Assembly: GCF_041260155.1 (NCBI RefSeq) | Contig: NC_091931.1 | Coordinates: 21,450,654 to 21,514,653 of the forward strand | Direction: 5' to 3' | Source: Ptychodera flava | Lineage: Eukaryota; Hemichordata; Enteropneusta; Ptychoderidae | Length of the DNA: 64,000 bases | In this document: positions 9,242-61,963 of the stretch, one piece after another | Numbering within the stretch: position 1 is the stretch's first letter | Layout of the letters: each line of letters starts with the position of its first letter | Program-made: the position numbers and the translations under genes | The notes under the pieces: model-generated | What the model was told of the DNA's origin: nothing | The model's input: only the letters and a program-made list of their open reading frames with translations | Database searches by the model: none

Positions 9242-12200
9242 ATGACGGTAGTATTATCTAAGAGTGTCGTTGTGGCCGCAGTGAGCGTGATATGTGCTCT
9301 ACACCTTCTTGTCAACGTTGTGCTAAACTTTAGGGAAGCCATGCCAGCTGTGAAGAGAATCTTTGCCGGTAAGGTACCTTTCACTCAGGTCCAAGCTGTG
9401 AAGTATTGTTTAGTACATTGTATCGATGTTCGAGGGAAGAAACTGAATATAGTACGATTACCACACTAGTACACTGGAGAAGATTCTGTCGCCGTCTGAC
9501 AGTATATATTGTTGAAATTACATATTTCAGTGTGTTTACGTGTGAACAGGGTGCATTGTTTCAAAACACATCTAAACTTGTCAGCGGCTGACATCACATG
9601 TCGAGGTCAATCAGTCACCTGATACGACCCCGGACCGTGATAAAAACACTGTTTACATGCTGTCATCATCCCTCATTGCCAGGACGGGTTCACATGATTT
9701 ACAAGTAACCTTGACGCAAAGACAACAAGTATGTGTCATCATGGAGGTACCAGTTCCTCCGTGGTGTCATCAACAAAATACAAAGATCGACTTCTAAGAT
9801 GTATGAAACAGCCTCCGTGTAGGAATCAGTATTACAAGTTTTGCCACATTTCTGTGCAATGCCAATCACTTTGTTTGCCTATCACAATATTTACTCACTT
9901 TATCAGAAACCAGCCACCTCTCAATTGCCATATCACATGATTTGCACCCTAATCTCACTCTGGCAGCCTATTTGCTGCAATAATATCCAAGAAGTGCAGA
10001 TTTAACCCACCCCAATGTAAATATATCAACTAGAAATTAAGCCATGCCACCAAGGCTAGCTATATAGTCCAATCTGGTGAATCTCACCATTTGACTTCAA
10101 ATACTGAACCGTATATGAAATTTACAATGGTAATCAAAATACTCATTCATCAACATATCCTCTTTTTTTGCCATATGAACAAAGCAAGTCATGATTAGTA
10201 CACACACCATATTCCAGGCTGTTATTCATAATATCATGTGAACACGTAGATTTGATTTTGTATACAATCATTTCATTGAAAATTATAATGAATGAAAGCA
10301 AAACATGTTTTCCTACATATACATGTACTCTTAACCATATGGTATCACAACACTTCTAGCATTGATATAAACTTGCACAAAAAAGATAGGGTGAGACTGA
10401 AATATTTTCTCAATACACATACACAAATATTTGTGTTAAACCTTTTTTGCTATGCTTAGCCTGTTTCCATCTAAAAATCTGAGCTAGCTTTTCTGCTTTC
10501 TGTTCCTGTGGTGTTTCCAGGACTTAATGAGGGGCTTTTGTTTAATCAATCTTTTATATATTAATATTTTTTTGTATTGATGTTCTACACTGTCAGGCCT
10601 GTTGGCTGTTGGTTGTGTAGGAGTCACCACACTCTCTTACAAACTGCACAGAATGAGGGCATCGGAGTACCATACAAGGCGTTCCATGTTTGACCAGTAC
10701 GTCGTGTTCTCCGTAATGAGTTTGCTTGGCAGTTACAAGAGAAAGAAACTTGAAGCCGCGACGAAGAAAGTGAAGGATGTGCAGGACAAGATACTGCTGG
10801 AGAGACTGGCGTACAATGCAGAGACAGAGTACGGAAAGAGGTTTCACTTTTCCGAGATCAAGACACGAGAGGACTTCAAAAGGCTCCACCCTCTGACGAG
10901 ATACGACCACTACAAGGACTATGTAGACCGCATTGCAAAGGGAGAGGAGAATGTCATAACCAAGGACAGACCCAAGATTCTGGCACTGACATCCGGAACC
11001 TCAGGGAATGCTTCCATGTTACCTACGATTCAGAAACAGTTTTCTGCGTTCTTCCTACAGGGCATCACAGTCTGCTTTGATTCCCTGTTCACAGGGTATC
11101 CAACCGCAAAACAGCTGCAGAGAGATCTGAAACTGTTCTACTCACCAAAACCACGGACTTCGGAGTCCGGCATTCCAGTGGGTCCCAACTCCTCCTCTCC
11201 GGCGTCTTCCAAGGGACTACTGAATCTGTATTCCACTCCAGAGGCCGGCTTTGGAATCATGACCGAACCGGAAGCCCTGTACGTCCACCTGCTCTTTGCA
11301 CTCAGGGATCGGAACCTCGGCATGATTGAGGCCAATTTTGCATCGCTTGTCTACATGGCATTCGTGGCATTATCAAAACACTGGAAACAGCTCGTCGAAG
11401 ACATTGAGAGAGGGTACATCGATCCAAAATTAAACATTACCGATGAAATCGAGCCAAATTGAATGATCTGATGAAGGCAGATGAGAAGCGTGCCGCTGAA
11501 TTGAAACGAGAGTTTGAGAAAGGCTTTGACGGTATTGCAAAGAGAATATGGCCGTACCTTGAACTGATACTGACAGTGGATACAGGATCATCAGAACTGT
11601 ACGGAAATGTTTTAAAAACACACTATGCAAAAGGTATAATTTGTCAACTTAAAGGGGCAGATTTTTGTCAGCTTTGTCTCTGAGCAAATATTGACCGACT
11701 TTGCACAACTTTCAAAGGAGAACAAAAGACCAAATCACATAAACAGTCAAAATCATGTAAGCAGCCACTATTAAATGTGAGAACCATGGATTGAAGACTG
11801 TCACTTTAAATCTTTTAAACGGTTTATTATGAACTAATGCTTTTCCTTTTATTTTGAAAGCTTGGGTTTGTAGAATTTGATGCATAGATTCCCAAGTATA
11901 AGTCATATATACTGAAAATTGTTGAGGCATTTTTAAAATATCTCCAGACCTGTCTGTTACAGTATCTATCCAATTTTGAAATACAGTTTTTTTCTGCTTC
12001 TTTGGTTTTATAAATTATTGATGGAAATAACATTGCACATAAGTCTTTTTGGCTGGAAATTTATAAACCAGTATCAGTCCAAGGAATAGTGATTGGGCCA
12101 TGTAATCTACAAAGGTGAAGATGACGAAAACTCCATATGCTAAAATGCTGATTCACATGACCAATCAACACTCATGCATTAATATTGCTTCACTTTTCAG

Positions 12201-15200
12201 ATATTCCTCTGTATTCACCGTTGTACGCTGCAACTGAGGGCTTATTAGGAATCAATGTCTGGCCAACTGATCCAGAGAGATACTATCTGCTAGTACCAGA
12301 GTCAATGGTTTTTGAATTCATTCCCATTGAAGCAAGGTGAGATCTTTTTCTTTTCCCGATCACACAGGGCATTTGGTACATCTGTGAACAGCGATAAGCA
12401 AACTCCATTCAGCCTTTGGAATATAGTCCTAAAATCAGTATTGAGGTGTACTCAGCCAGGTTTGCTTTCCATGTGCACTATGTTATCATACACCTCAACT
12501 AGGATGGTGTGGGAGAGCACCAAAATGACTATTCACTAATCTTAATAGATACTGGTTCTGTTTGTTGTTCTTGACCTCATGCCAATCAATTTGCTCACCC
12601 TAATTAGAGTCACTCACAGTGATACTTCGCCATCATTTGAAATATTGAGTAATTCCCCGACAGAGAAAAATCAAAAGCTTAAAGGGCCAGTACTGTAACT
12701 TTTGATGATTTTGTCTCTATTTTTGTTTTGTATGTAAATGTCAAGGTCTTGTTCTATACTCCCCAAAGCATATTGAAACACCTACTATTTCGCTTGTCAA
12801 GATAGCGTCTATATGTGTAAAATGCACTGTTATTGTTTACATTTGAAATTTTAGTGGGGACTAAAATTCACTTGTAAACAAGAACGATGCAGTAGAAACA
12901 CGTACAGGCTGAATTGACAAGCTCAACACTGCGTATCTAGATATGCTTTGGGGAATAGAACAAGAAACACCATGTTGACATTACAGAAGAAAAATAGTGA
13001 AATAATCATCAAAATCTACAGCCTCTGACCCGTTTTGTATTTTGTTTCAATTTTCTTCATGTAAGTAATACATGTATTTTAGTGGTTGACATTCTGACAA
13101 TGAAAAGATTTCCTGGTTTATTCTATCCACCTCTCCTATGTGTATCTCACTGATACAACATGTTTTTATCTTTGTCTGTTTCTTACTGTCATGCGTTTGT
13201 TTCCATATCTTTTGATATCATCATACATCCTGGAAATTTTGACTTTATATATGTATCTGTGCTATTGATACACTGTATGGAACTGCTGCGCACATACACA
13301 GACACACCCACACACAAGCACATTCATGTGCTTTTTTTTTCAATTTTACATTGTCTTGTTGATTCCCCTCAGTGACGAGGCCCAGCCAGACACGCTGTTC
13401 ATGGACCAGGTTGAAGTTGGTCAGACCTACGAACTGGTCATCACCAACGTCAGTGGTCTCTATAGATACAGATTTGGTGATGTGATCAGAGTTGTCAGGT
13501 TGCATAACCAGTGTCCAGTCATAGAGTTCCTCTACAGGTGAGAAAATGATATGAGAAATTCACTTTTCTTGCACAAATCTATGTAGATAGTGTGGTACTG
13601 TAAACACTCTATTGATTCAACCACTGTGTTAATGTGAAAATTTCAAATCGTAATTATTTTTTCTGGTCAAATGATAGGGTTTTTATAGTATCAATAACAG
13701 AGAATAGAGAGACTTTGTAAGTGCTAATGTAATTGGTCAATTGGTCAGTGAGATGAGATTTGTTAGAAACCAAGCCTGTCAACTATTTACCCCATGACCT
13801 CCTACAAAGACCCACCTTTTCTCCAGACAACAATAGGGCTGAGCCAATATTGGGCAACAAAGAGGTAATATATAAAGTAAAAGTGTCCTAGAATTCTGTA
13901 TGTCCAGGTTGTTGAGAACTTTTCCAAGTACATGTTTGACAACTTGCAATGGACAGGCACCCAAATGAGGTTGAGGGATGAGAAGCTTTCGATGAAAAAG
14001 TAGCTGGTCAAAATCAGTCTATGACAGGTCAATTTATCAAGTTTCAGGCTAAAAATGAAATGTATAGGTTTTAGTATATTACACATAAAATTGATTTCAA
14101 TACGTGATTGACATTTCAGACAGGGTCAGTTGTTGAATGTACGAGGTGAGAAAACATCAGAGAATGTGTTCTACAAAGCCTTGGTTGAGACAGTGTCTAA
14201 ATGGTCTGATGTCAAACTGGTGGATTACACCACAGCTGAGAGTGTTATGCTGCCCTCACAGAGAGGTAATACCACCATTTCAGTCATGTCCCCCCTGCCC
14301 CATAAAAAAATTGATTCGAGAGTAACCATTGCTGCATGGGAATATTGAGCAATTACATGGACTGTGCATCAACAAAGACAGATTTTTTTATGTTCACACT
14401 TGAACCAATGACTGAAGAACCAGAAACCTCAACTCGCAGTGTTGGTGCTGTAGACGTTTTCACATGTAGAAAGAGATTTCTTATCAGAGTAATTCTAGGA
14501 TATTGCCGCATGCTATTAATACTACATTTGTGCATTTTGTGGTACATTACTAAATAAATGTATATCGCATTGCTTGGTAATTTTTATTTTCTGTTTTCTT
14601 CTGTTTTTAGTGGATGTCAATGATGACACATCACAGTATTATTTAGTGTTTGTTGAATTAGATGGAAATGCTGAAAAGCTTCAACTCAGTCAAGAACAGA
14701 AAGACATGGCAAGTACTTAAACCTGCTCACCCCCCAGCGCCCCTCCCCCGCCCCATAAACAGGTCTACAAGCAGCATTGATAACAATGAGCTCGGGGCCA
14801 AACCATGGTTGTAAAACGGCTTTCTTATCGATGGATGTCAAGAGACTGTTTTATGAGAAATCAATAACCTATGATACACTTCAGTTTGACAGTGGTGTAG
14901 CTTTCATTATTATAAACCATTGACTGTGAACAACCTTATGGAATTCATCCAATCAAAACGTGAGATCCATTTCTCCTTTATTGTACTGGGCTTCGACAAG
15001 TGAAAGGGTAGGTCTGAACTGTGAGATGTAAGAAAGGGCGCCCTCACAGTCAAAATTATTCGTTTTAAGTTGAGTTATTGTGAGACCGTGTGGGGTGATC
15101 ATGCTGTTGGCAATTCTTTTGTTCACTTCTTCCTCGGGAAGAGCCATTGTTCTTTTCACCGAGCTTGATTGTGATGTTGTTGGCACAGATGTATTGCCAC

Positions 15201-17300
15201 CTGGTGTGTTATATTCTGGGTATTGCGAGTTGCCATCACTGAGGATAGTTATGAGTGCGAAAAATGAATCCGATTTTTAGTCCCCACGGACACCGTCCGG
15301 GGGGACTTATAGGTTTGGTCATGTCCGTGCGTGCGTGCGTGCGTCCGTCCGTCCGTTCACGCAGATATCTCTGAGATGCCTGGAGCGATTTCATTCAAAC
15401 TTGATACAAGGATTACTTCATATGGCATACAGATGCACGTCAATTTGTTTTGTTATACGATCCAATATGGCCGCCAGGCGGCCATTTTATTACGATTTTT
15501 TCATGTACAGAGCCATAACTCAGGCATGTTCCAACCGATTTTATTCAAAGTTGGTACAAGGACATTGACCAATGTCATACAGATGCACGTCAATTTGTTT
15601 TGTGATACGATCCAATATGGCCGCCAGGCGGCCATTTTATTACGATTTTTTCATGTACAGAGCCATTACTCAGGCATGTTTCGACCGATTTTATTCAGAG
15701 TTGGTACAAGGACATTGACCAATGTCATAGATATGCACATCAATTTGTTTTGTGATACGATCCAATATGGCCGCCAGGCGGCCATTTTATTACGATTTTT
15801 TCATGTACAGAGCCATTACTCAGGCATGTTTTGACCGATTTTATTCAAAGTTGGTACAAGGACATTGACCAATGTCATACAGATGCACGTCAATTTGTTT
15901 TGTGATACGATCCAATATGGCCGCCAGGCGGCCATTTTATTACGATTTTTTCATGTACAGAGCCATTACTCAGGCATGTTTCGACCGATTTTATTCAGAG
16001 TTGGTACAAGGACATTGACCAATGTCATAGATATGCACATCAATTTGTTTTGTGATACGATCCAATATGGCCGCCAGGCGGCCATTTTATTACGATTTTT
16101 TCATGTACAGAGCCATTACTCAGGCATGTTTTGACCGATTTTATTCAGAGTTGGTACAAGGACATTGACCTATGTCATACATATGCACGTCAACTGTTTT
16201 GTGATACGATCCAATATGGCCGCCAGGCGGCCATTTTATTACGATTTTTTCATGTACAGAGCCATTTCTCAGGCATATCCGCATGTTTTGACCAATTTTA
16301 TTCAAAGTTGGTACAAGGACATCGACCAATGTCATAGCTATGCACATCAATTTGATTTGTGATGCGATCCAATATGGCCACTGTGCGACCATTTTGTTAC
16401 GATTTTTTTCATGTCCTGAACCATAACTCAGACATGTATCAAGCGAATTCATTCAAAAGTATTTTTATCACAGACCTAATGAAGAGGACTCTATCCTCTT
16501 TGAGGACCTGTAATCAAAGTACCGATTAACAAGTGGGGACTGTGTCATCAACGATGACTTGTTTGATGATAACTTGGACGTACCCGTCTGTAGGCTGCTG
16601 AAGTGTCTGGCTACACTGAACATCTACATGTAATTCCAAACTTCCCACTAATACAGCTCCGTAGCCCCGCCTACACCATTTATCAATGCTAAGCATCAAA
16701 TTCACGTAATGCGAAGACATCAATTTCTCACTATACTATCAAACTGAGAGAAATTATATTTGTGTGTGGTGCCAACTACCTATGCATAAAATATCACATG
16801 CAGTCTATTAAGCTTCCATGATATAATTATTGTTATAAGTAGTTTTTAGTGCAAGTTCAACACAGAAGCCAAGGTTTACACAAGTGCATCACGGCCTTGA
16901 CAATTTCCATTGCACTGTTTCTTGCAAAAACTTGATAAGCATGTCTAATATCTCTAAGTGTTTTAGAAAACTCACCAACAAGATGAAAAATCATAGCGTT
17001 AATTCAATTATAAACAAATTTGAAAATATACATCAGTTACATTGGATTCTTCATTTTTTAAATTCTCACTTTCAACAGCTTGACCAAGCTCTAGTGAGGT
17101 CTGGATACGTCTATGAGTCATTCCGCAATAAAGGCAGCATCTCGGCACCCAAGGTGCACGTTGTCAAGTCCGGAACATTCCAGAAACTCAAGGAGTACCT
17201 GATAGAAAACACCATGGCAACGGCGAATCAGTTGAAGATACCGCGTGTTCTGAAGAGACAGGACGCCTTGAACCTGATGCTTGAAAACGCCATTGATTGA
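9242..17300 (+). CDS. GHDC: GH3 domain-containing protein (GHDC), seven exons, one frame break
   Basis: Animal member of the GH3 family; plant relatives are ATP-dependent acyl-acid amido synthetases, while the animal substrate is not established. Exons: 9242-9368, 10597-11633, 12201-12336, 13373-13537, 14120-14265, 14611-14708, 17079-17300 (TGA). Exon phases all join. The total is 1931 nt, one short of a multiple of three, because exon 2 lacks one base near 11450; restoring it gives about 643 aa. Two hydrophobic segments lie at residues 5-30 and 43-57 (signal anchor or membrane hairpin). Adenylation motifs: LTSGTSG (about 173-179), YAATEG (about 397-402), YRYRFGDV (about 464-471). The start is the first ATG after an in-frame stop; the exon 1 to exon 2 join rebuilds Gly43. 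Introns carry MITEs and a tandem-array element. The last intron uses a GC donor. Confidence 0.88.
10597..11633 (+). CDS. GHDC: GHDC exon 2 with a one-base frame break
   Basis: The main GH3 exon. The first frame runs to TGA at 11460-11462. The GH3 similarity continues in the next frame from about 11453 (LNDLMKADEKRAAELKREFE, then WPYLELILTVDTGSSELYGN). The expected peptide across the join is DEIRAKLNDLM. Inserting one base at about 11450/11451 gives it, so a single nucleotide is missing. No intron signals bracket the spot. Sequencing error, a polymorphic null allele and a true pseudogene all remain possible. The other six exons are intact, which favours an assembly error or a recent mutation. 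Confidence 0.85.
11649..11809. mobile_element. Short TTAA-type MITE in GHDC intron 2
   Basis: Flanked by TTAA at 11649-11652 and 11806-11809. The ends AGGGGCAG and CTGTCACT are imperfect inverted copies, similar to the termini at 5803 and 12683. It sits 15 bp inside the intron after the exon 2 donor. Ends only are convincing; the interior shows little pairing. Confidence 0.4.
12683..13031. mobile_element. Foldback MITE in GHDC intron 3
   Basis: TTAA at 12679-12682 precedes AGGGCCAG. The right end reads CTCTGACCCG and is diverged, with no TTAA after it. The arms share TTTTGATGATT near each tip and CCCCAAAGCATAT further in (about 12760 and about 12945). The centre, near 12855, is AATTTTAGTGGGGACTAAAA. 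Same terminal style as the 5803 element, so probably one superfamily. No coding capacity. Confidence 0.65.
14745..14815 (+). repeat. Dispersed repeat copy (GGGCCAAACCATGG family)
   Basis: Shares AAACAGGTC, GATAA and GGGCCAAACCATGG in the same order with 23262-23340 (+) and, inverted, with 36361-36430. Three diverged copies in the window; family not recognised. Confidence 0.6.
15274..16562 (+). mobile_element. Tandem-array element A (Helentron/HINE-like), in GHDC intron 6
   Basis: The left end is TTTTTAGTCCCCACGG, forming the hairpin GTCCCC-CGGAC/GTCCG-GGGGAC (15280-15306), then a GT-rich CGTGCG run. The right end, 16530-16561, begins CAAGTGGGGACT and ends ATGACTTG, with a small hairpin; its GTGGGGACT is the inverse of the left AGTCCCCAC. 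Between them lie seven units of about 150 bp, each with CCAATATGGCCGCCAGGCGG (15461, 15611, 15761, 15911, 16061, 16210 and a decayed one at 16367). Subterminal inverted repeats, a 3' hairpin and a tandem core are the plan of non-autonomous Helentrons (DINE-1/HINE). That assignment is inference. No protein is encoded. Confidence 0.7.
15541..16140 (+). repeat. Exact 300-bp duplication inside element A
   Basis: 15541-15840 and 15841-16140 are identical at every base I compared. Each is itself a dimer of two slightly different 150-bp units (one with CATACAGATGCACGTC, the next with CATAGATATGCACATC). The copies outside this block differ. This is a higher-order repeat, so the expansion was recent. 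Confidence 0.9.
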
Positions 17301-17626: not shown

Positions 17627-18050
17627 TTAGTCCCCACGGACACCGTCCGGGGGGACTTGTAGGTTTGGTCATGTCCGTGCGTGCGTGTGTCCGTGCGTGC
17701 GTGCGTGCGTGCGTCTGTCCGTTCACGCAGACATCTCAGACATGCCCAGGTCAATTTCTTTCAAACTTTGCACAAGGATAGTTCCCTACCCCATACAGAT
17801 GCACGTCGATTTGATTCACAATGCGATCAATTTTGGCCGTGTTAGAGGACTTTTTAGTTTTCACCGTCATAGACTCCCATGTATAGGCAGTCTCCATAGA
17901 CTCCCATGTATAAGGCAGTCCATAGACTCCCATGTATAAGGCTGTCCATAGACTCCCATGTATTAGGCAGTCTCCATAGACTCCCATGTATAAGGCAGTC
18001 CATAGACTCCCATGTATAAGGCAGTCCATAGACTCCCATGTATAAGGCCA
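17627..18050 (+). mobile_element. Second left end of the element A family, with minisatellite
   Basis: Starts with the same AGTCCCCACGGACACCGTCC hairpin (17629 on) and the same GTGCGTGCG run as element A. After about 240 bp it passes into a minisatellite of seven 26-28 bp units with CATAGACTCCCATGTATAAG (17867-18048). The matching right end is missing; element B starts directly after it. It was probably interrupted or truncated by that insertion. Confidence 0.6.
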
Positions 18051-19894: not shown

Positions 19895-21501
19895 TTTTAG
19901 TCCCCACGGATGAAGTCCAGGGGGCTTATAGATTGGGTCATGTCCGTCTGTGAGTCCATCCGTTCACGCAGATATCTCAGATATTTTGACAAAATGTCAC
20001 GTGACCTTGGTGACCTTTGACCTCAAAAATATATATTTGTCCATAACTCAGTAACCACAAGTGCTACACCCTTCGTATATGGTATGATGGGACAGCTTAT
20101 GACGCCACATATTGTACCTCATTAATTATGTGCATATCTAATTTTGAGCGAGCCAATAGAGCTAGAGGTCTGATTTTTGGTATATAGGGATAACTTAGCA
20201 ATACTATTTTTTTTCCAAAATGTCACGTGACCTCGGTGACCTTTGACCTCAAATATACATATTTGTCCATAACTCAGTAACCACAAGTGCTACACCCTTC
20301 ATATATGTTATGATGGGACAGCTATATGACGCCACATATTGTACCTCATTAATTATGCACATATCTAATTTTGAGCGAGCCAATAGAGCTAGAGGTCTGA
20401 TTTTTGGTATATAGGGATAACTTAGCAATACTATTTTTATTTCAAAATGTCACGTGACCTCAGTGACCTTTGACCTCAAATATACATATTTGTCCATAAC
20501 TCAGTAACCACAAGTGCTACACCCTTCATATATGTTATGATAGGACAGCTTATGACGCCACATATTGTACCTCATTAATTATGTGCATATCTAATTTTGA
20601 GCGAGTCAATAGAGCTAGAGGTCTGATTTTTGGTATATAGGGATAACTTAGCAATACAATTTTTTTGACAAAATGTCACATGACCTCGGTGACCTTTGAC
20701 CTCAAATATACATATTTGTCCATAACTCAGTAACCACAAGTGGTACACCCTTCATATATGGTATGATAGGAGACCTTATGAAGCTTCATACTGTACTATG
20801 TACCTCATTAATTATGCGTACATCTAATTCTGAGCAAGCCCATAGAACGGGATGTCTGTTTTTTGGTATATAGGGATAACTATAGGATAGAAATTTTTTG
20901 ACCAAATGTCATGTGATCTCAATGACCTTTGACCTGAAATATAAGTTTATGTCGATAATACATAACCACAAGAGCTATGTCCTTTATATTCAGTAGGGTG
21001 GGAGACCTTATGACAACACACGCTTTACCTCATTAATTATGCACACATCTAGTTCTGGGCAAGCGAATAGAGCTAGAGGTCTGATTTTTGGCATATAGGG
21101 ATTAATTAGCAATACAATTTTTTTTCAAAATGTCACGTGACCTTATGACCTTTGACCTTGATGATACATATATATGCATAACTCAGTAACCACAAGTTCT
21201 ATACCCTCCAATTCTGATAGGATATTAGACCTTAAATGTCACATCTTGTACCTCATTATTATGCGCATATGTATTTCTTGGCTGGCCAATACAGCTAGAG
21301 GTCTGATCTTTTTTCCAGATTTAGAACCATGACTTAGACATGCCTCATGTGTTTCAAATTGGGAACAACGACATAGACCTATGTGCCCATAGATCTCAAC
21401 ATATACACTCCAGTGATACTTCTTAATGACCACATTTCCCTGCCCATCAAGACTAATACTCCCCTATTACAAGTGGGGACTATGTCATTGTCATGACTTG
21501 T
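19895..21501 (+). mobile_element. Tandem-array element C (same ends as A, different core)
   Basis: The left end is TTTTTAGTCCCCACGG (19895 on), and the right end, 21470-21500, runs from CAAGTGGGGACTATGTC to TGACTTG, as in element A. The core differs: about six units of roughly 220-230 bp starting at about 19994, 20219, 20446, 20674, 20905 and 21126. Each has TGTCACGTGACC, TGACCTTTGACCT and TCATTAATTATG, or close variants. Shared ends with exchanged cores suggest a family that captures and amplifies unrelated sequence. Confidence 0.7.
19996..21160 (+). promoter_or_regulatory. Array of E-box plus nuclear-receptor DR1/DR3-like sites
   Basis: Each core unit of element C contains TGACCTTTGACCT, whose complement AGGTCAAAGGTCA is a perfect DR1 (HNF4/RXR-type) motif. 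Sites lie at about 20010, 20237, 20463, 20690, 20920 and 21147. In several units a third half-site stands three bases upstream (TGACCTCGGTGACCT, DR3-like). A CACGTGAC E-box precedes it in four units (CACATGAC or CATGTGAT in the others). The motif match is direct; regulatory use is untested. Confidence 0.35.
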
Positions 21502-40079: not shown

Positions 40080-43000
40080 GTGACCTGTAGCTTGAGAGAA
40101 TAATGAAGGCCATATTACACGGTAAGCACACGTTCTGGAAGTAATGAAGACCTGCACAGAAATATTCAGTAAGGTTCCACGCTAGCTGTTGATCAATTCA
40201 TCACATCCATATAATGAGGGGGAGTGCGGGTCATGTTTTCAACCTTCGAAAAAAAGGGGGAGGGGGAGTTGTGTAGTTTGGACCAGACTGCCGTTCGACA
40301 GCGTCATCATATCGTTTTTAAATAGAAGACGACACAAACTTTGTGTAAAACTTTACTAGACAGGGCGTGCTCATTTGAATCGTGTAAAAAGTAATTTGAA
40401 AGTGCGCTAATATTGTTGTTACTATGCGTATCTCTTTCTTGTCGTGTACGAGTGGTGTTTCTGTTGGATTGTTTTCGAGACCGATCGGTTCTGATTTACG
40501 TCAAGTTGGTGTTGAGTCATGGAATGTACTGCTAGTGTATCTATGATCTTCCATTAGATGTTCCGTTGTACATGGTGTTTTCAGGTAGGCATATAGATGT
40601 AAGGATGAACAAAAGACAAGTGACGATTTTTTTAGATCCTCTTCTGCCTGCGGAACAGTTGATCAAAACGACAGTGGAATGAAGCCCTGTATAATCGGAA
40701 CCTGCCCACGACAAACAGCGCCCGCCGTGTTCACGGGAGGGTTGGGTCTTGAAGTGTTCGCAAAGACGCACATTACAAGCTTATGCCGGGATTTACGTAT
40801 ACGACATGGCAACCGCGTGTAGGAGTTATATTCAATAATGGAGTTCAAATTTGTTTTGAAATAGTCGTTGTTTAAATACTTGTTGGCGTTTTCAACTTCC
40901 AGCAATCAGTAATTTGTCACGTTTGCAGTCCGGGTCAGCTCCAAAATTGGAGACGCTATACCATAATATTTTCCCCCTCTCATTAGCCAATCAGCGGCCA
41001 GCGCGCCATCAGTAAAAATTGTATTTCCTGGCAACCTCCACATGCGTCCTTCGTTACGGACGCCATACTGTGTCGAACTCCCGCGCCATATTCTGTCATA
41101 ATGTCGAACAGTTGTGTGGCCACTCTGTCAAAACACAATTTCAAAATCGCGTACCAGTTTTATTCTGGCTAAGACAACCAAACCCCATATATCGCTGTGA
41201 TTCCTAGACTCTGGCTTGAAGTCCTGCGAAATATAAATCGTGTACCTACACAGATCGTTCAGAATACCCATTTGTATCGGAGATGGCAGCGATACAAATT
41301 CTACCGTATGGGGAACAGTTGTGTGGCCACTCTGTCAACACATTTTCAAAATCGCGTACCATTTTTAGTCTGCGTTTGACAACTACAAAACAGGTATCGT
41401 TCTAAAGCTCTGACATTGCTATTCTTTCTTGCAAAATGTTATACGCGTACCTACACAAATAACCTTTATAACAGTATTTCTAATAGAGATTACGAACATC
41501 CACAAAATGATTCTCGGTACTTGAGCGAAATCGATAAACTGGGGGTAGAAATAAATCGTCAATATTTCGAATATTTGTTCACTAATCGGACTCCTTGTTG
41601 GACATGACCTTCTGCAGAACACGTGGATTATGTTGACTGTCGAAATTCGTCGAAATTCACAAGACAGGGGCTTAACAAGCGTCCCAAAACTGCCGATCAC
41701 ACTTGGTGGGTAATTTGTGACCCAACGTGACCTGTACGTTATTAATGATGTAATCTGGTCGATGATTGGCTGAATGCCGGTGATCTGCGACCTACCCTAC
41801 CTGCGATCTACTCTTCCACTCATGAATAATTAATTTGATTTATGCAAATATTGCTACTTATGCATGACAGCAAGTTCTATTCAGACTACACTGCCTATTC
41901 AAAACGAAGTCTGTAAAATACGAAAATGTAATGGGAGAAAGGTGGTTTTTACGATCACTCAATCACAGAGAGGTTATGCTTACGGATGTGATGAACTTCT
42001 TGTCCATGTTTAGTAACCTTTCCAATGTTAGAAAGGAGAAGAATATTATTTTAGGCCGTGGCGCCTGTCAATAGACAAAATCCGGCTATAGACAAAAGTT
42101 GGCTATTGACACCGTGAGGTTTTTCGTCAAAATTCACCATATTTAAGCCTAATAAAGTGTCCAATGCTTGAAAGAATGCTTGATAAAGCCTTCGTACACT
42201 CAATTATGGACAAAGTCGCTGCAATCTTGAGTAATTGTAGACTTTACCGTGTACGATATGTTGCACCAACGCCGCGCCGGTCAATAGCCAGGATGTGGCT
42301 ATTGACACGCGGGAGGTTTTTCGCCAAAATACACCATATTTAAGCCTAATAAACTGTCCAATGCTTGTTAGAATGCTTGATAAAGCCTTTGTACACTCAA
42401 TTATGAATAAAGTCGTAATTTTGAGTAATTGTAGAAGTTTACCGCGTACGATTACACCTTGCAACGCCGCGCCTGTCAATAGGCTATTGACATGCGGGAC
42501 TCGCTGTCCAAATTTTAATGGATTTTTTATCGAAACATACATAGTTGGCAATGAGTATAGATGGCAATGGGAGTGTAGATGGCAATGGGAGTATAGATGA
42601 CAATGGGAAAATAGATGACCTGCATAAGAGACGACGTCAAAAGTTCAAAATTTCTGACCCAACACCCAAACGCCCACCTCCACTGAACCTTATGATGAAT
42701 ATCAATAATCAGAGGTTCCCATTTAATCTTCACTGTGATAATCCCAATCATACTTAAAACATTACCAGGACAGAAAGTTGCAAATAACGACAATGTTCTA
42801 ATGAGAAAAAAACCCCATTTATTTCTGTTAAAAAAGCTCATCAGTAAGATAAGTCCCTGTAATATAAGCAGGTCAATATATAAATGTCTCTCAGACAAAT
42901 CAAACAAGAACATCGTTTTTGCAGGATGAAACTTTTTTGGGTTAACCCCCCCCCCCCCCCATCACCACAAAACCCTCCCCACCCCAAACTTAAAGAATTC

Positions 43001-46000
43001 GGATTTTTATCTTTTGACGTGGTCTCGAAGGGAAGTGTTATGGTTACCAGGCTCAAGCTACACTGGCTGCACTGAAGAGCTGTGACGCCTGTGACTATTA
43101 TGTCGTGAGGTTTTTGGCATCGATAACCAACCCCTAATTATTGTTTTAGAATGGCTTAGTATTGACTGAAGTCTATAAATTGAACGAAATCAGCAAAATG
43201 TATTTGGGAAGCGCTGTCTATAAATTGAACGAAATCAGCAAAATGTATTTGGGAAGCGTAGATTACAAGGGAAGTATAGATCGCAGAGGTATCGGCGAGG
43301 TAAACTTCCTGCGACCAACACTGCATGGCTTCCCCGTGGCGATGGATGTGAATTTTATCTTGCAGGGTTTGTGGTATCGAAAATTATTTGATCCTGTATA
43401 ATTGTTTTCGAACGTTTAGTATTAAGTTTCAATTATCAATCGAACGAAACAATAAAATGCATCTGGGGAGCGTTGATCGCAAAGGAAAGTATAGATCGCT
43501 AGGGAAGTATAGATCACAGAGTTACCTGCGAGTTACATACTTCCTGCGATCAACACTGGCTGCCATGTGCATGCCATTGTGGTGATGCCAACGAATCGTA
43601 TGTTGCGAGGCTTGTGGCATCGAGGTCAATCAACGATCTCGGATAATTGTTAATCGAATATATAAACTGAACGGTAATAATAAAATATGTTAGAGAAGCC
43701 TAGAGATAAAGGGAAGTATAGATCGCAAGGGAAGGATAGATCGCAGAGTTACCTGCGAGCTATACTTCCTGCGATCAACACTGGCTGCCGTTGTGGTGAT
43801 GCTAGTGAATCGTATATTGCGAGGCTTGTGACATCGATAATCGATCCCTGAAAATTCTCTCGATTTAATATTCTATCTAATTTATCAACTGAACGGTAAT
43901 AATAAAACACGTTGGAGAAGCGTACATAGCAGAGGGAAGTATAGATCGCAGAGATACCTGCGAGCTAAACTTCCTTCCACTACAATGGATCCCGGATAAT
44001 TGTTTTGGTATCCCTTGATATTACATCGAATTTATCAACTGAATAGTAATAATAAGATAGGTTGGAGAAGCATAGCTAGCGGAGGGAAGTATAGATCGCA
44101 AGGGAGGTAGAGATCGCAGAGCAGAGTCACCTGCGAGCTATACTTCCTGCGATCAACACTGGCTGCTATTGTGATGATGACAGTGAATCGTATTTTGCGA
44201 GGTTTGTGCCATCAACATCGATAATCGGTCCCAGATAATTGTTTTGGCATGACTTAGTATTACATCGAATTTATCAACTGATTAGTAATACTGAAATACG
44301 TTTGAGAAGCCTAGAGGTAAAGGGAAGTATAGATCGCTAGGGAAGTATAGATTGCAGAGTCAACTGCGAGCTACACTTCCTGCGATCAACACTGGCTGCC
44401 ATGTGCATGCCATTGTGGTGATGCCAACGAATCGTATGTTGCGAGGCTTGTTGCATAGGCAATCGATCCCGGATAATTGTTTAGGTCTGATTTAATATTA
44501 CATCGTTATCAACTGAATAGTAATAATAAAATACGTTGGAGAAGCATAGCTAGCAAACGGAAGGATAGATCGCAGAGTTATCTGCGAGCTATACTTCCTG
44601 CGATCAACACTGGCTGTGGTGATGCTAGTGAATCGTATTTTGCGAGGTTTGTGCCATCGACATCGATCCCGGATAATTGTTTTAGTATGATTTAATATTA
44701 ACTTGAGTTTATAAATTGAACTGTAATAATATAGTACCGGTACGTTTGAGAAGCGTAGGTGGCAGAGAGAAGTACAGATGGGGGGGGGGGGGTCGCAAGG
44801 GAAGTATAGATCGCAGAGTTGAGCTATACTCTCTGCGATCACCACCGGCTGCCATTGTGGTGATGCCAGTGAATCGTATCTTGCGAAGCGTGTGACATCG
44901 ATAATCGGTCCTGGATAATTGTATTTTTAATATTTTTAATATATTTAATATTACATCAAATTTATCAAGTGAACGGTAATAATGAAATATATTTGAAAAG
45001 CGTAGCTCGCAGAGGGAAGAATAGATCCCAGTCACCTGCGTCTAAGATTATGATCATTGTTCCGCGATCAGACCGACACTGCCTTTACATAGGCCGACTT
45101 CATTTATTGAAGTTAGATGTTGCGACATTCGCGGTACGTATCGAGGTGTGGCGGTTAGCTTTTGGCATTTCTTCTTTGAACCGAAAGAACAGATATGCGT
45201 GCTGTAGAGTAATTTGTTGGAGTAGCGTAGAAGGGAAGTATTGATCGCAGGTGTGTTTGACAGAAAACCATGCGATCTACCCATCTCTATCTTGTAGTAA
45301 TTTGATCTATACTTGTAGGCCTACCGATTGGATGAATATTTTATTTATTTGATTTATTAAAGGATGGATGTGTCGATTATGCTTACATCTTCAACTTTGT
45401 CAGAACATTATTTATTCCATCATGAGTTTCTTACGTTCACATCGCAATTAATTACAACCATCTCACCATGGCTAATTTCTTACACCAAATAGTAAACAAT
45501 ACACATGATAAAACATGTATATTAATAATACCGAAATAATACACAATCAGACCATACCACATGTACGAAACATTAAAATACACTAACTAATGAGAATTGT
45601 GGAGCAAACTTCCTCTATTTTACTCATACATTAGTATAGAGTTTATGACACAATGCAAGGAAGTGATGGCTAGATGAAATTTTTAAATATCCCATTTTGA
45701 AGATTTGCAGTCGTCATAACAAAATTAGGCCTACTGGCTGCAAACAGATTACAGCGAAAACGGTGATTAGCGAAAAGCACGCAAAGTTTGCCGAATTTGC
45801 AGTTTGCTTCTAACGGCGCTCGCGCAAGCTATAAGGATCTGAAGTACAAAATGAAAATGAAATATAAATCAGCTGAAGGCCTCCACCGGGGGCCTCCATT
45901 ACATCATGCACCGTAAACGGACCGAATGTACGGCTACATTTGGTTGAAAATCTGCAATCGTGGAGCGTAGATCGCAAGGCAGCATAGCTCGCAAGTCAGC

Positions 46001-48688
46001 ATAGATCGCAGTATATACCTGCGATCTATTCACCATATTTCACGGGCGCACAGGAAATTTGCATAAAACTGTACATTTTTGCATGAACCTAATTAATTAT
46101 TCATGAGTGGAAGAGTAGATCGCAGGTAGGGTAGGTCGCAGATCACCGGAATACATTATCATAATGAGTCTCCAATTTTGGAGCTGACCCGGACTGGTTT
46201 GGGAGACGTTCAAGGCCTACTTTAATCGCTAGATTTTCGCTCCTACACTTTCGCTTAATTTAGGGGAGTTTCACCTCAAACGCACTGACTTTCCTTCGTC
46301 GTTCGCGTGTTTGTTTATGGTCGCCAGGATCATAAGCCATAAATTGATTATGCAAAAATTTACAGGTGAACTGTTACGAATCCTGAATAATAGTATTTAC
46401 GAAACAAGTGTAGTTGCAGTATCGCATGCAATATGTGTATCGCGATGCACGGTCACAGAACTGCCGTTGCTGTTTATTACGTGTAAACAGTGAATTTATT
46501 TCAAACTTCAATAGGGCTAAGAATAGACAAATTTGGAACGCTGTTATGGTTTTAGCCATATGAGGAAAGAACATTGCAAATAAGGGAAAAGATAATCCCC
46601 TTTCATTATAGGGTTGTTATTTACAATCATGACTTCATCGTTTAACGTATACCACATACTTATCTGTCAAGTCATGCACCCTTTTTTCAAAATATAAACC
46701 AGAAAAATTTGTTTTACTAGGTTTTCTGAAACTTACCTTGTATGATTTTTTTGCGTGGATCGGAATCGTGTTCATCTCTACGTGATTGACGGGTTGATTC
46801 CATTACTAGTATTTTACAACTTATCCAAAGAAATGATCCATGATAGTTGCTAAAATCATATCAGAACTTTCTACGGACGGATATAACTTTTTGTGTACAT
46901 GTAGTTTGAACAAATTGTTTGCGTCGCGTCAGTGAATGGTTGCCAGCCGCACTGGAAGTCTTACATCTCGCTATATTTGGAGTGGCGCTCCCTTATTTGA
47001 CTGAGCACATCGTCTCCGATTACAACATAAGAGACTCGCGATTTTCGCTCTGTTTATGTATCGATGAAGTTTACTATAGTCCACTCACCATTGCAGCGAG
47101 GTTTGGCCAAACAAATATAAAATGTTCATTAAATTCCTATGCCATGTCAAGATTATTCAAAATTAATGTCAAAGTATTGCCGTAAAGTAAATGTATAGTA
47201 CTTCTCAGAAATCCGCGGTGAAATGCGACTCTGTCAATGATTTGTTGAAGTTGTCTCTAACATCAGAATGTGCCTCGCGGGGACAGATATTCGGACTCTC
47301 AGACTTGCCTGGTTTGTGCACAGGGTACCCAGACATCTGGTTGTTGTTTATATTGTTGTTTATGCTTATTAGTCAAGTTTTTTGTTGACCAATAAAATTC
47401 AACGAAGATAACTGTTGTGTTGCTGTTGGTTCAAACGTAACGTAGATGTCATAAGAAATGCTACAAGGACGCTATCTTATCATTTTACTTTATTTCAAGA
47501 GGGTAGTCCGAGTTACAAAAAATAATTGTAATTTACATCAGAAATAAATGCAACATATCCTACTCAGAATACCAGTTATTACTAATACCATTTATTACTA
47601 ATACCAGTTAATACCAGTTGTTACTTTATTTCAAGAGGGTAGTCTGAGTTACAAAAAATAATTGTAATTTACATCAGAAATAAATGCAACATATCCTACT
47701 CAGAATACCAGTTATTACTAATACCAGTTTATTACTAATACCAGTTAATTCCAATTGTTACTTTATTTCAAGAGGGTAGTCTGAGTTACAAAAAATTATT
47801 GTAATTTACGTCAGAAATAAATGCAACATATCCTACTCAGAAAACCAGTTATTTCTAAATGTTGAAATCATGTTGAACTCATAACTACTTTTTATTTTAT
47901 AAAACAGACTCTGGTGTTGGCAATGCTAGCAATGAAGAGGTTAACGGAATGAATGATTTGATTCAAGCTGAGAAGGAGACAGCTACAATCAAGGAATCTG
48001 ATGATCATTTGTAAGTATCTGTAAGCTGTTGTTGATACCAACGATTAGTGGGCATACAATTTACACGTTTATTTATATATTTATTTATTTAGATTTATCC
48101 AAAGTAAATGGTAAAAAAGGTCTACATAGGATGACCAAAACAAGCTATGGCCAATAGTTGCCGATTTAATTTTTTTTTTCGCGTACAGATCGGACCTCTG
48201 GATGAAGGTCTGATAGTTCGGTGTATTTCGAACGGACATTCATTGAAAAAATGTATTAAATGTAAAGAATGTATTTCGTGCATGAATAAATGTAAAAAAT
48301 GTGAAACGTGCAGAATTCTTGTCTACTAGCCATGGATGACCAAAACAGTTGCAAATCATCTATACAACGTCAGTCCCCCATAACACACTACAGAACAAGC
48401 AAATGGAAAAGGTGACGTAAAATATACAATTTAAAGTGAAAAAAACAACATTGCAAATGACCTTGATATACAATATCACACGATCCATGTCCATGGTACG
48501 ACCACATTTACCAACACGTAATATTTGCGCCTTATTAACCTTTTCTTTGGATATTATTTTTGCATAGATCGAATAATTGTGTGTCTGATGAAGACAGACC
48601 AAGGAGGAACAGAAGTCAGAATGTTGTCTGGCGTTTCTTCCACCTAGTTAGGAAACGGATGAGTCGTGTGTTCGGCCATATTCAGTAA
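40080..48688 (+). CDS. Candidate small gene, 80 aa, three exons
   Basis: Exons: 40080-40121 (ATG 40103), 47908-48010, 48568-48688 (TAA 48686-48688). The acceptors (CACCTTGTAG, TATAAAACAG, TTTTTGCATAG) and donors (GTAAGC, GTAAGT) are good. The phases join (1 then 2) and the coding sum is 243 nt. Exons 2 and 3 together encode an acidic, Ser/Glu-rich middle (SNEEVNGMNDLIQAEKETAT) and a basic amphipathic tail (VVWRFFHLVRKRMSRVFGH). AATAAA lies at 49065. Exons 2 and 3 are supported by frame continuity across the intron. Exon 1 is weaker: only seven codons, joined across 7.8 kb, and other exons could lie between. Not recognised as any family. There is no signal peptide; the tail could bind membranes or nucleic acid. 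Confidence 0.4.
41107..41470 (+). repeat. Diverged two-copy tandem repeat, about 204 bp
   Basis: AACAGTTGTGTGGCCACTCT occurs at about 41107 and 41311, followed in both by TTTCAAAATCGCGTACCA. CGTACCTACACA recurs at about 41241 and 41445. It lies in the extra 0.8 kb of the left arm. Confidence 0.65.
42056..42500 (+). repeat. Tandem repeat, about 207 bp, two and a part copies
   Basis: The unit starts at GCGCCTGTCAATAG or a variant (42060, 42268 and 42470) and includes CACCATATTTAAGCCTAATA and GAATGCTTGATAAAGCCTT. Copies differ by substitutions and short gaps. GGCTATTGAC recurs in each. Confidence 0.75.
42543..42612 (+). repeat. Minisatellite, about 17 bp, four copies
   Basis: GTATAGATGGCAATGGGA-type units repeated four times with drift to GATGACAATGGGA. 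A tract of about 14 C follows at 42947-42960. Confidence 0.75.
43166..43258 (+). repeat. 42-bp duplication
   Basis: Two nearly exact copies, back to back, of a unit containing ATAAATTGAACGAAATCAGC and AAAATGTATTTGGGAAGCG. The same sequence appears, diverged, in each hairpin unit that follows. Confidence 0.8.
43258..45070 (+). repeat. Array of about nine hairpin-bearing units, 150-235 bp each
   Basis: Each unit has GGAAGTATAGATCGCAG, a 6-12 nt loop, then CTGCGAGCTATACTTCC, which can fold into a stem of about 16 bp, followed by CTGCGATCAACACTGGCTGC and a spacer with CGGATAATTGTTT. Units start near 43272, 43478, 43712, 43933, 44080, 44320, 44556, 44800 and 45010. Spacing and sequence vary, so the array is old or gene-converting unevenly. 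One unit carries a run of 13 G (about 44779). Further GATCGCAG/GCGATCTA pairs lie at about 45240-45280 and 45962-46030. Confidence 0.75.
46737..46803 (-). CDS. Possible orphan first exon
   Basis: On the minus strand an ATG opens MESTRQSRRDEHDSDPRKK and runs to a good donor (CAAG|GTAAGT, exon end 46737). No downstream exon was found, because the hairpin-array element follows. Short and charged; could be chance. Confidence 0.2.
47483..47862 (+). repeat. Tandem repeat, about 136 bp, three copies
   Basis: TTACTTTATTTCAAGAGGGT at 47484, 47621 and 47758. Each copy continues with GAGTTACAAAAAA, AAATAAATGCAACATATCCT and ACCAGTTATT. It ends 46 bp before exon 2 of the candidate small gene. Confidence 0.9.
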
Positions 48689-50640: not shown

Positions 50641-50825
50641 TGCTGTGGTATATTGTTTATAGTTACTCCCAAATGCTTGAGGCATTCATGGCTGTTCTCT
50701 TCTGTTAGGTGGTGTTTTACTGTTTAAGGTTGGTTTTATCATTCATTTTCAGTTTCACTCTGTGTTTATACGCCCCGTTTATAGTTCTGTGCCTTATTGT
50801 TACTTTTGGAGGGCCCTCAATGTCT

Positions 50826-51620
50826 TGGTAATGTAAACCTACTTTAATTTCTTTGGTCACAATTTGGAATATTATTAATCCATTATCATTATTATTATCA
50901 AGATCACAACTTACTGAAGGCACTCCATGCATTTAGCATTATCCATAATGATTTGAAGTTATCTAAAATTGTTGTGAGTAGTATGTATGATAAATCTTTA
51001 GGTGTATCACAGTTAATGTTGCCAGACCACATATTGTACCTTTATTTAGTCCTAAATTTACAGCAAAACATTTATATTGATGGAGTTTTGGCCATATTTG
51101 CATTTGCAGCCGGCAGAACTGACGACAAAACTCACTGACTTTACATTCAGTTGTTATGCAAAGTCTCCAAAGTTCAACAGAGCAGTTTCACTAAATGTTT
51201 ATCAATCCTGTTTTAGTTAATTTTTCGGTAATGCAAACCTATTTTAATTTCTTTGGTCACAATTTTGAGTATTATTAAACCATTGTTATTATTATATTAT
51301 TATTATTATTATTATTATTAAGATCACCAACTTACTGAAGACTCCCAACAGATTCAGCATTATCCATTATGATTTCAAGTTATCTAATATTTTTGTGAGT
51401 AATAATTATGATAAATCCTTGGATGTATCATAATTAATGTTGTCTGACCACATACTGTACCTTATTTTAGTCCCCTATTTACAGAAAAACATTTATATTA
51501 ATGGATTTTCGGGAAACATTAAGACGTGATTTTATATCATTTTTGCTTTTGCAGAGGCCAAAACTGACAACAAAACTCATCAACTTTACATTCAGTTGAT
51601 GTACAAGGCCGCTGAAGTAT
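50826..51620 (+). repeat. Tandem duplication of about 400 bp carrying kinase exon pieces
   Basis: Unit 1 (50826-51215) and unit 2 (51222-51620) share ACCTACTTTAATTTCTTTGG-type starts, an ATT microsatellite, GATCAC-AACTTACTGAAG, the HNDLK exon remnant and the LTDF exon remnant, in order. The duplication includes intron, so it arose at the DNA level. Confidence 0.85.
50926..51180 (+). pseudogene. Kinase-domain fragment, copy 1
   Basis: Exon A remnant 50926-50973 reads IIHNDLKLSKIV (catalytic loop; the Asn of the parent LSN is changed to Lys). Exon B remnant 51110-51180 reads KLTDFTFSCYAKSPKFN and then stops matching. The intervening intron is kept. No N-lobe and no C-terminal part. Confidence 0.7.
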
Positions 51621-51985
51621 GCTCCACCGGAACTTTATAAGTTTGATGTAAGTCCCAGCATGTAACAAAGCCAAAGACATCTGGGCACTCCACTGTTGCA
51701 TGGCTCAGCTCGTCACCTTGAGGACAGCCCATGATGAAGTGTGTATCAATGGTGACATCATGGAAGAAGTCATCGCCAAGGTCGAAAATGGCAAGCCAGT
51801 ACCTCTCAACATTGCCTGGTCAAGAATGCAAAATTATGTCAGACCTTGTTGCCTTGTCAACGAAGTCCACATTGAGTTCTTTGTTGCCGTCGGATTATAA
51901 GTTTGAGTTTTATAAGTTTGAAATCCAAGCATGCAACAAAGCAAAGGACATCTGGGCACTCAGCTGTTGCATGGAGCAGGGTCTA
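51351..51985 (+). pseudogene. Kinase-domain fragment, copy 2
   Basis: Exon A remnant 51351-51394 (HYDFKLSNIF; the catalytic-loop Asn is Tyr and the Leu is Phe). Exon B remnant from 51555 continues through a decayed APPELYKFD and NKAKDIWALHCCMAQLVTL to EEVIAKVENGKPVPLN. A second piece of the same C-lobe (KFEIQACNKAKDIWALSCCM, about 51898-51975) follows directly, so another partial duplication is joined on. Several stops and frameshifts. Confidence 0.7.
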
Positions 51986-52359
51986 GTAGCATACCTTCTA
52001 GCTTACACATTATCTCCAACCACCGGCAGAGCAACTCCGCATGCAAAGTAGACATTAGCAATATGGCAATCAACCAAGTGCGACCAATCTCCATCATAGA
52101 TAGATGTCTTGGAGATTTTATTGATGAGATCATTAAAACCATGTGAGGACTGTTGTACCGACAGAAAAAAGAATCATTTACACCACTGTCCAATCTGCCT
52201 TGCGTATGTTAACCCTAACCATTATTATTATTATTATTATTATTATTATACCATTATTATTATTATTATTAGCTAACCCTTCTAATAAACGTGTGACAAA
52301 TAGGGCCCAACCTATTACATCAATCGCTATGAACATACACACATTGCTTTGGTCTGAGA

Positions 52360-52850
52360 TTGGAGCTGTCTGAGGGCGCAGGTATGCTGCTAGATACTTA
52401 CGATGGTGGTTGCATGGCTCAGCTAGTTAGTACTTTGAAGATGGCTCAGAACAAATTGCGTATCAACATCATGGAAGAAGTCATTGCCAAAGTAGAAAAT
52501 GGTGAGCTACTTGTACCTCTCAACGTTGCTATGTTGGAAGAAGGAGACTTCAAGGAACTGTGTCAACGTTGCTGTGATATGGAACCATCTAATTGACCCA
52601 GCGCCAAGAAAGTCTATCAAGATCTGAAGAAATTGCTTGCAAAAAGAAAGACCATCCAACTGACGAATATTCACTTCCATTGTCATGTACACTCATATCG
52701 GAGTCTGTTTGTTATTCATACCTCACATCAGTCAAGAATTCAGAATCAATTTAAGTCCACTACTGAACTCTTCCATTGCCATCAGGTTGTTAACCATATA
52801 GCTCCCACCATTGGCAAACGGGATTGACAATTTCTGACCAATCGAGCCAC
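52360..52850 (+). pseudogene. Kinase-domain fragment, copy 3
   Basis: Encodes CMAQLVSTLKMAQNKLRINI, then EEVIAKVENGELLVPLN, LCQRCCDMEPSN, a stop, then AKKVYQDLKKLLAK. It covers only the end of the kinase C-lobe. Similarity to the 57.8 kb copy runs on into the 3' flank (ACAATTTCTGACC, AGCCAC near 52830), confirming DNA-level duplication. Confidence 0.75.
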
Positions 52851-57145: not shown

Positions 57146-57851
57146 TTGCCTCTAGTCGGAAAGTACGACATCATGTTGAAGATCGCCAACTCGCTGAACG
57201 CCCTCCACGGATTCGGCATCATCCATAATGATTTGAAGTTATCTAATATCCTGGTAAGTATGATAAATTCTTCACTGTATCACTGCCATGCTGCACAACA
57301 CATTTTACCTGCATTTAGTCCTCTATTCACAGGATAGCACATACTGATAGAGTAGAGGGCTATATTAACTCTCGATTGTATCTCATATTTGCTTTTGCAG
57401 TTACAACGACCAGAAATGAAAGTCAAACTGACCGACTTTTACGTTCAGTTGCTACGCCAAGTCTCCCAAGTTCAACGGTGCAGGATCACTCATGTACGCT
57501 GCACCGGAACTGTTCAAGTTTGAAGTTCCGCCATGCAACAAAGCCAAGGATATGTGGGCACTCGGCTGTTGCATGGCTCAGCTCGTAACCTTGAAGACGG
57601 CCTACGATGAACAGAGTGTCGACGGTGAAATCATGGAGGAAGTCATTGCCAAGGTCGAAAATGGCGAGGCGGTTATTCCTCTGAACATTACCATGCTGGA
57701 GGATGGACAGTTTAAAAATCTCTGTCAGCGCTGCTGTGACATGGACCCAGCAAAACGACCAAAAGCAAAGAAAGTGTACCGAGAGGTGAAGAAATTGCTT
57801 GCAAAAGAAAAAGAAAAGCAAAACAAGGAATATTCACTTCCATTACCGTAG
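57146..57851 (+). pseudogene. Atypical protein-kinase C-lobe, best copy, one extra base
   Basis: Exons 57146-57253 and 57401-57851 (TAG), GT-AG. Exon A: LPLVGKYDIMLKIANSLNAL, then HGFGIIHNDLKLSNIL, a catalytic loop with HND in place of HRD. Exon B: KVKLTDF, then (after one extra T in 57437-57440) TFSCYAKSPKFNGAG, MYAAPELFKFE (APE motif), WALGCCMAQL, and LCQRCCDMDPAKRPKAKKVY (the conserved RP-K of subdomain XI), ending KEYSLPLP. Copy 1 has three Ts at the same spot, which shows the frame intended. DFT replaces DFG, so metal binding may be weak. The N-lobe (glycine loop, VAIK) was not found upstream. Could be a gene with a sequencing error, or a pseudogene. Probably TKL-like; family not assigned. 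Confidence 0.6.
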
Positions 57852-61861: not shown

Positions 61862-61963
61862 TAGCCCTGCGTACCGTGCTGTGTGTTCCCGGCGTTATAT
61901 TCGGCCTCCCACCAGAGGGAGGCCGTATAACGCCGGGAACACACATCACGGTACGCAGGGCTA
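61862..61963. mobile_element. Mutator-type foldback MITE, 102 bp, 9-bp target duplication
   Basis: Near-perfect palindrome: TAGCCCTGCGTACCGTG on the left pairs with CACGGTACGCAGGGCTA on the right, continuing through GTTCCCGGCGTTATA and CGGCCTCCC to a loop of about 6 nt near 61913. It is flanked by ACATCCGCA on both sides (61853-61861 and 61964-61972). A 9-bp duplication is characteristic of Mutator-like elements. The arms are almost unchanged and the duplication exact, so the insertion is recent. Confidence 0.9.

Follow-up and report, generated by a model that had tools for sequence, protein, structure and literature searches.

A probable non-autonomous DNA transposon with its end motif amplified in an internal hairpin array

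What kind of element encloses, between inverted arms, a series of hairpins built from a word that is also present in the arms themselves? The question is raised by a stretch of 5271 bp at 40926-46196 of a 64-kb window (the whole stretch of DNA analysed, 64,000 nucleotides), for which an earlier note proposed a non-autonomous transposon with internal recognition sites, a source of structured RNA or an amplified protein-binding array. Systematic analysis of the ends, the flanks, the coding content and the internal repeats confirmed the observation of an element bounded by inverted ends, with corrections. Judged from its sequence, the element is probably a non-autonomous cut-and-paste DNA transposon in which the motif of the ends, probably a site bound by transposase, has multiplied internally. 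This best accounts for the inverted tips, the repeat in the flanks, the lack of recognisable coding and the motif common to ends and array; the first proposal is thus partly supported and fits best, and the protein-binding array amounts to the same idea viewed from inside.

The ends of the element were examined at nucleotide level. The outer inverted ends are identical over 29/29 nt from the tips and over 40/47 up to the inner arm (49 nt at 86% by the repeat finder), while the inner arms are identical over their first 59/59 nt (81 nt at 93%, with 4223 nt intervening, in agreement with the roughly 4.2 kb described before). The identities of 29 and 59 nt therefore stand, whereas the division into two separate arm pairs does not. 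On the right the outer and inner parts are contiguous at 46075-46196 (minus strand), and on the left the outer part at 40926-40972 and the inner part at 41777-41851 (both plus strand) are parted by 804 nt, which rules out two nested pairs. The arms are a single terminal inverted repeat of about 120 bp, which stops after about 122 bp and whose left copy is split. The tips read CAG...CTG: the left one opens at 40926 with CAGTCCGGGTCAGCTCC..., and the complement of this sequence closes the element at 46196.

The 804-nt stretch that splits the left repeat (40973-41776) has imperfect inverted ends of its own, CATTAGCCAATCA / CATTCAGCCAATCA, with an end-to-end local alignment score of 27 that was reached by 3 of 500 random 60-mer pairs from the first 40 kb. 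It also carries a partial tandem repeat with a spacing of about 206 bp, and within it no copy of the motif described below was found at up to 4 mismatches. A nested insertion is the simplest account of these inverted ends and of the absence of motif copies, and is favoured over a deletion on the right end as the cause of the split; since no target duplication was seen around the stretch on inspection by eye, its status as an insertion is no more than probable.

Immediately outside both tips lies a 5-bp direct repeat, GTTTG (40921-40925 and 46197-46201, identical), which had been overlooked at first reading. A match of this kind has a chance of 1 in 1024 for a fixed boundary and length, and a somewhat higher one here since lengths of 2 to 11 were compared; flanking words of 2-4 and 6-11 bp gave no match across the tips. 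Together with the inverted ends, the flank repeat is as expected for a cut-and-paste insertion, and inverted termini that are 29/29 identical at the tips and accompanied by a direct target duplication are what a non-autonomous transposon with terminal inverted repeats would present. Target duplications are 7-8 bp in the P superfamily, against 5 bp here, and the flanking 7- and 8-mers differ; those of Hermes are 8 bp.

The element had been described as devoid of open frames. Mechanically called frames of up to 128 aa do exist, although all 19 stop-to-stop frames of at least 70 aa overlapping the element returned no Pfam match reaching the curated cut-off, and in these frames no transposase or transposase remnant was recognised above it. 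The best match below the cut-off was DUF443 (E 0.0078). Searches for relatives were similarly sparse. No second copy of the element is present within the 64-kb window, and a single copy with no second insertion there counts against the transposon reading. Four exact patterns gave 0 matches each among viral contigs, where zeros say little as the collection is not one of animal genomes. The 17-nt tip pattern was found in 54 bacterial stretches among prokaryote genomes, against about 30 expected from collection size and equal base frequencies, and these are taken for chance matches.

The remainder of the window is eukaryotic by gene content (10 frames scanned, 4 with matches), and the genome is judged to be nuclear and animal-like. 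Pieces of a GH3 domain, N-terminal at 10581-11462, middle at 13269-13541 and C-terminal at 16839-17300, lie kilobases apart and in order, arranged as exons of one gene would be, and a protein kinase fragment is found at 57432-57851. Diverged duplicated pieces at 50819-52681 and 57179-57844 are 67-85% alike, the latter overlapping a frame with a C-terminal part of a protein kinase, and are possibly decaying duplicated genes. A head sequence is repeated at 15279-15420, 17629-17779 and 19899-19984 (pairwise pieces 74-81% alike), opens at 15279 and 17629 with the hairpin AGTCCCCACGGACACCGTCCGGGGGGACT, and shortly precedes differing tandem arrays of 150-, 26/80- and 226-bp units; these stretches look like another family of mobile elements carrying tandem arrays. 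An inverted repeat of 102 nt at 61862-61963, with 37 pairs, at most 1 mismatch and a 26-nt loop, has no further copy in the window.

The link between ends and interior is carried by a 16-nt motif, of consensus GGAAGTATAGATCGCA, which was taken from the hairpin word and matched at up to 4 mismatches. It can be seen from the distribution that 41 of the 45 matches in the window fall inside the element, which makes up 8% of it, and that 200 first-order Markov resamples of the element held a mean of 0.43 matches and a maximum of 3. Since the motif derives from the element itself, this enrichment is partly circular, an objection that does not extend to the occurrence of the motif in the terminal repeats. 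Relaxing the limit to 5 mismatches gives 75 matches, 25 of them outside the element, so that single weak matches mean little. The shorter word GATCGCAG occurs 17 times in the 64-kb window (9 plus, 8 minus), always within the element, and with two motif copies in each terminal repeat the claim that inner arms and array have a word in common was borne out.

Of the 41 matches, the inner part of the left terminal repeat has 2 (minus strand, 16 bp apart) and the right terminal repeat another 2 (plus strand, 16 bp apart). Between them, an 18-bp array at 42541-42620 holds 3, the central array accounts for 27, a further 3 fall in 45081-45950 and the right subterminal cluster contributes 4. At this threshold the motif was not detected in the outer part of the left repeat, in the 804-nt stretch, or in the intervals 41852-42540 and 42621-43244. 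When up to 5 mismatches are allowed, same-strand neighbours in clusters lie 16-19 bp apart, with two exceptions of 32 bp on the plus strand (a 13-G run lies between) and of 30 bp on the minus strand (45271/45301). The 16-bp spacing at this threshold is that of the left terminal repeat and of six units of the central array (u1, u2, u3, u5, u6 and u7), all as minus-strand pairs, and of the right terminal repeat as a plus-strand pair. The basic unit of amplification is the motif of 16-18 nt and not the hairpin, which results from motif copies in facing orientation.

Several repeat arrays lie between the terminal repeats. At 42062-42500 a tandem repeat of about 197-bp period and two or more copies contains inverted repeats of its own (GTCAATAGCC / GGCTATTGAC) and, at up to 4 mismatches, no GATCGCAG motif. 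It is followed at 42541-42617 (plus strand) by 4.4 copies of an 18-bp unit with a diverged form of the motif, ATAGATGGCAATGGGAGT. A 15-C run is located at 42946-42960, between the arrays. The central array at 43245-45080 (plus strand) comprises units u1 to u8 and a partial u9, with boundaries chosen by the analyst and hairpin starts 168-241 bp apart, and in each unit plus-strand motif copies, mostly 18-19 bp apart, stand opposite minus-strand copies, which are 16 bp apart in six units. The 13-G run, at 44780-44792, breaks one motif copy in u8. The right subterminal cluster at 45961-46031 (plus strand; three plus copies and one minus) forms an 11-bp hairpin.

Would the motif matter to the element, or is its array a passenger? 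The terminal repeats and the array could belong to one transposon in which the array is a passive satellite, seeded by a chance subterminal duplication and without a role in transposition, an alternative that we regard as possible but on the unlikely side. The two motif-free tandem repeats between the tips, with periods of about 206 and 197 bp and the first of them inside the probable nested insert, indicate that duplication occurs here regardless of the motif, and satellite-like repeats within transposons are documented in the passages on Tetris in PMC4079207. For Hermes, the passages of PMC10368747 cited here consider auxiliary transposase binding deeper inside the ends, beyond the outermost sites, unlikely to support transposition in cells; this speaks for a passive array and against a role for the motif copies far inside, and it weighs on the preferred reading. 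Most internal copies here lie over 1 kb from both tips, which sets them apart from the sites of Hermes, which are subterminal. Conversely, motif clusters are also present outside the main array, and the motif is better conserved between units than its surroundings, with 0.839 in motif-cluster columns against 0.768 in spacer columns (Mann-Whitney p = 0.009) and 0.888 against 0.832 without u1 and u4 (p = 0.057), a comparison that depends on the chosen unit boundaries. In this test and in the pair count below, u9 was omitted as its right half is unalignable, and the omission raises the pairing figures.

The hairpins raise the further issue of whether pairing itself is conserved. At least nine units, each folding into a stem of about 16 bp, had been reported. 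The hairpin word does occur in eight diverged tandem units, the ninth being degenerate and partial, and the hairpins are real, with a stem size that was a little generous: the 16-pair consensus stem is realised with 10 to 15 Watson-Crick pairs per unit over eight units and with 16/16 in none, u8 lacking 4 positions. Pairing over the eight units amounts to 91.1% of 124 cells (11/124 broken). Among the 16 stem pairs, 5 are invariant, 5 show a one-sided change of G-U type (one of the five also has a single broken cell) and 6 deviate by broken cells alone; a particular A-U pair is disrupted in 4 of the 8 units. Across these eight units, u9 left out, 0/16 pairs changed on both sides. When the partner was slid by 1-3 columns, pairing fell to 27-49%, a drop that any inverted repeat would be expected to show; in 5 of the 6 slid registers one pair has a two-sided change, whereas the true register has no such pair. 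The shuffle control of this test gave values identical to those observed in all respects and carries no information, and eight related units give little power. The pattern of pair changes gives no sign that pairing has been selected and suggests that the facing arrangement of motifs was inherited.

In a strict scan (at least 12 pairs, at most 1 mismatch, loop of 3-40) the 5.3-kb element yielded 4 hairpins, of which 3 consist of the motif, and the remaining 58.7 kb of the window yielded 8; none appeared in any of 10 mononucleotide shuffles of the element. Hairpins of at least 12 pairs occur in only 2 of the 9 units (u3 and u5), which argues against the stem as the conserved entity. An array that is transcribed and whose hairpins serve as structured RNA or give rise to small RNAs would be consistent with folding of ten stretches (units 1-9 and the right subterminal cluster), as z lies below -2 in 8/10 (the exceptions are unit 8 at -1.91 and unit 9 at -0.56). 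It is nevertheless very improbable in view of the broken cells, the pair disrupted in half of the units and the motif copies of the terminal repeats, which stand in direct and not inverted order. A function as RNA was rejected on the absence of covariation and of any Rfam family over the array at the gathering threshold, and the earlier proposal of a structured RNA source finds little support.

Under the preferred reading of a non-autonomous transposon, a transposase supplied from elsewhere would recognise the 16-nt motif, two per terminal repeat, cleave the element at its CAG...CTG tips and integrate it with a 5-bp target duplication. Tandem duplication, by unequal exchange or replication slippage, would multiply motif clusters inside the element and could generate satellite-like units of about 170-240 bp with the motif in both orientations, the facing copies of which would form hairpins; the additional sites may help to keep transposase on the element. 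As to how the array began, the left terminal 35-mer, which holds two motif copies, matches four units at 27-28/35 and a fifth at 24/35, compared with 21/35 at the best site outside the element. Units carry plus copies and then minus copies, and the element ends carry minus copies at the left and plus copies at the right, so that a unit follows the order of a right end and then a left end. Units thereby resemble the site where an element has closed into a circle or been joined in tandem, minus the outermost 47 bp, and it is conceivable, though we rate it as quite unlikely, that the array grew from such junctions and now acts as an internal platform for transposase loading or as a decoy.

The array, with its look of a hairpin satellite, is traceable here to a motif in the ends of its probable carrier transposon. 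Should that motif bind transposase, the element would offer a test of whether additional internal sites give a long non-autonomous element an advantage in competing for the enzyme.

How far does this plan depart from mobile DNA already described? A literature text search found this exact plan in no described element among the matches listed, bearing in mind that text cannot find sequence; the earlier statement that no described family has such a plan was too strong, as Tetris and Galileo, in the passages cited below, have much of it. Tetris, a Foldback-like element of Drosophila virilis, is apparently non-autonomous, lacks conserved open frames and combines inverted ends with tandem repeats of about 220 bp (passages of PMC4079207). 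Inverted ends, tandem repeats and the lack of recognisable coding are common to both. This likeness invites the reading of a Foldback-type element, in which the long inverted repeats would consist of tandem repeats and one of the arms would have undergone rearrangement, to which the tandem repeats of about 200 bp, the two tandem motif copies per terminal repeat and the further cluster just inside the right one would also conform. Such an origin appears improbable, given that the arms here are only about 120 bp with two motif copies each and that the arrays lie between the arms and not in both. In Tetris the arrays are in the terminal repeats and the duplications are 8-10 bp, against 5 bp here, and the cited passages of PMC4079207 do not mention a motif common to tips and repeats.

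In Galileo, a Drosophila element of the P superfamily, a THAP domain binds repeated sites in internally repetitive ends; the role of such repeats is called uncertain by its authors, who propose that a large number of binding sites may compensate for the cost of being long (passages of PMC3688188). Repeated sites inside the ends are the point of likeness, with binding to the present motif being putative; the sites of Galileo are in terminal repeats exceeding 1 kb, whereas the repeat here is about 120 bp and most motif copies are in an internal array. Target duplications of 5 bp are ascribed to the hAT5 group (passages of PMC12730594, citing Kapitonov and Jurka 2007), and the element is possibly hAT5-like, a first guess from the duplication length of one insertion, a likeness that does not by itself make membership. 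Hermes, of the hAT superfamily, has short subterminal repeats, one pair of them quasi-palindromic, that are bound cooperatively by BED domains, the site being AAGT and close to the tips (passages of PMC10368747). Its resemblance to the present element, with short and partly palindromic repeats near the ends, is one of arrangement. Overall, the comparison with these known systems portrays the element as most likely a variant of known mobile DNA rather than a new system.
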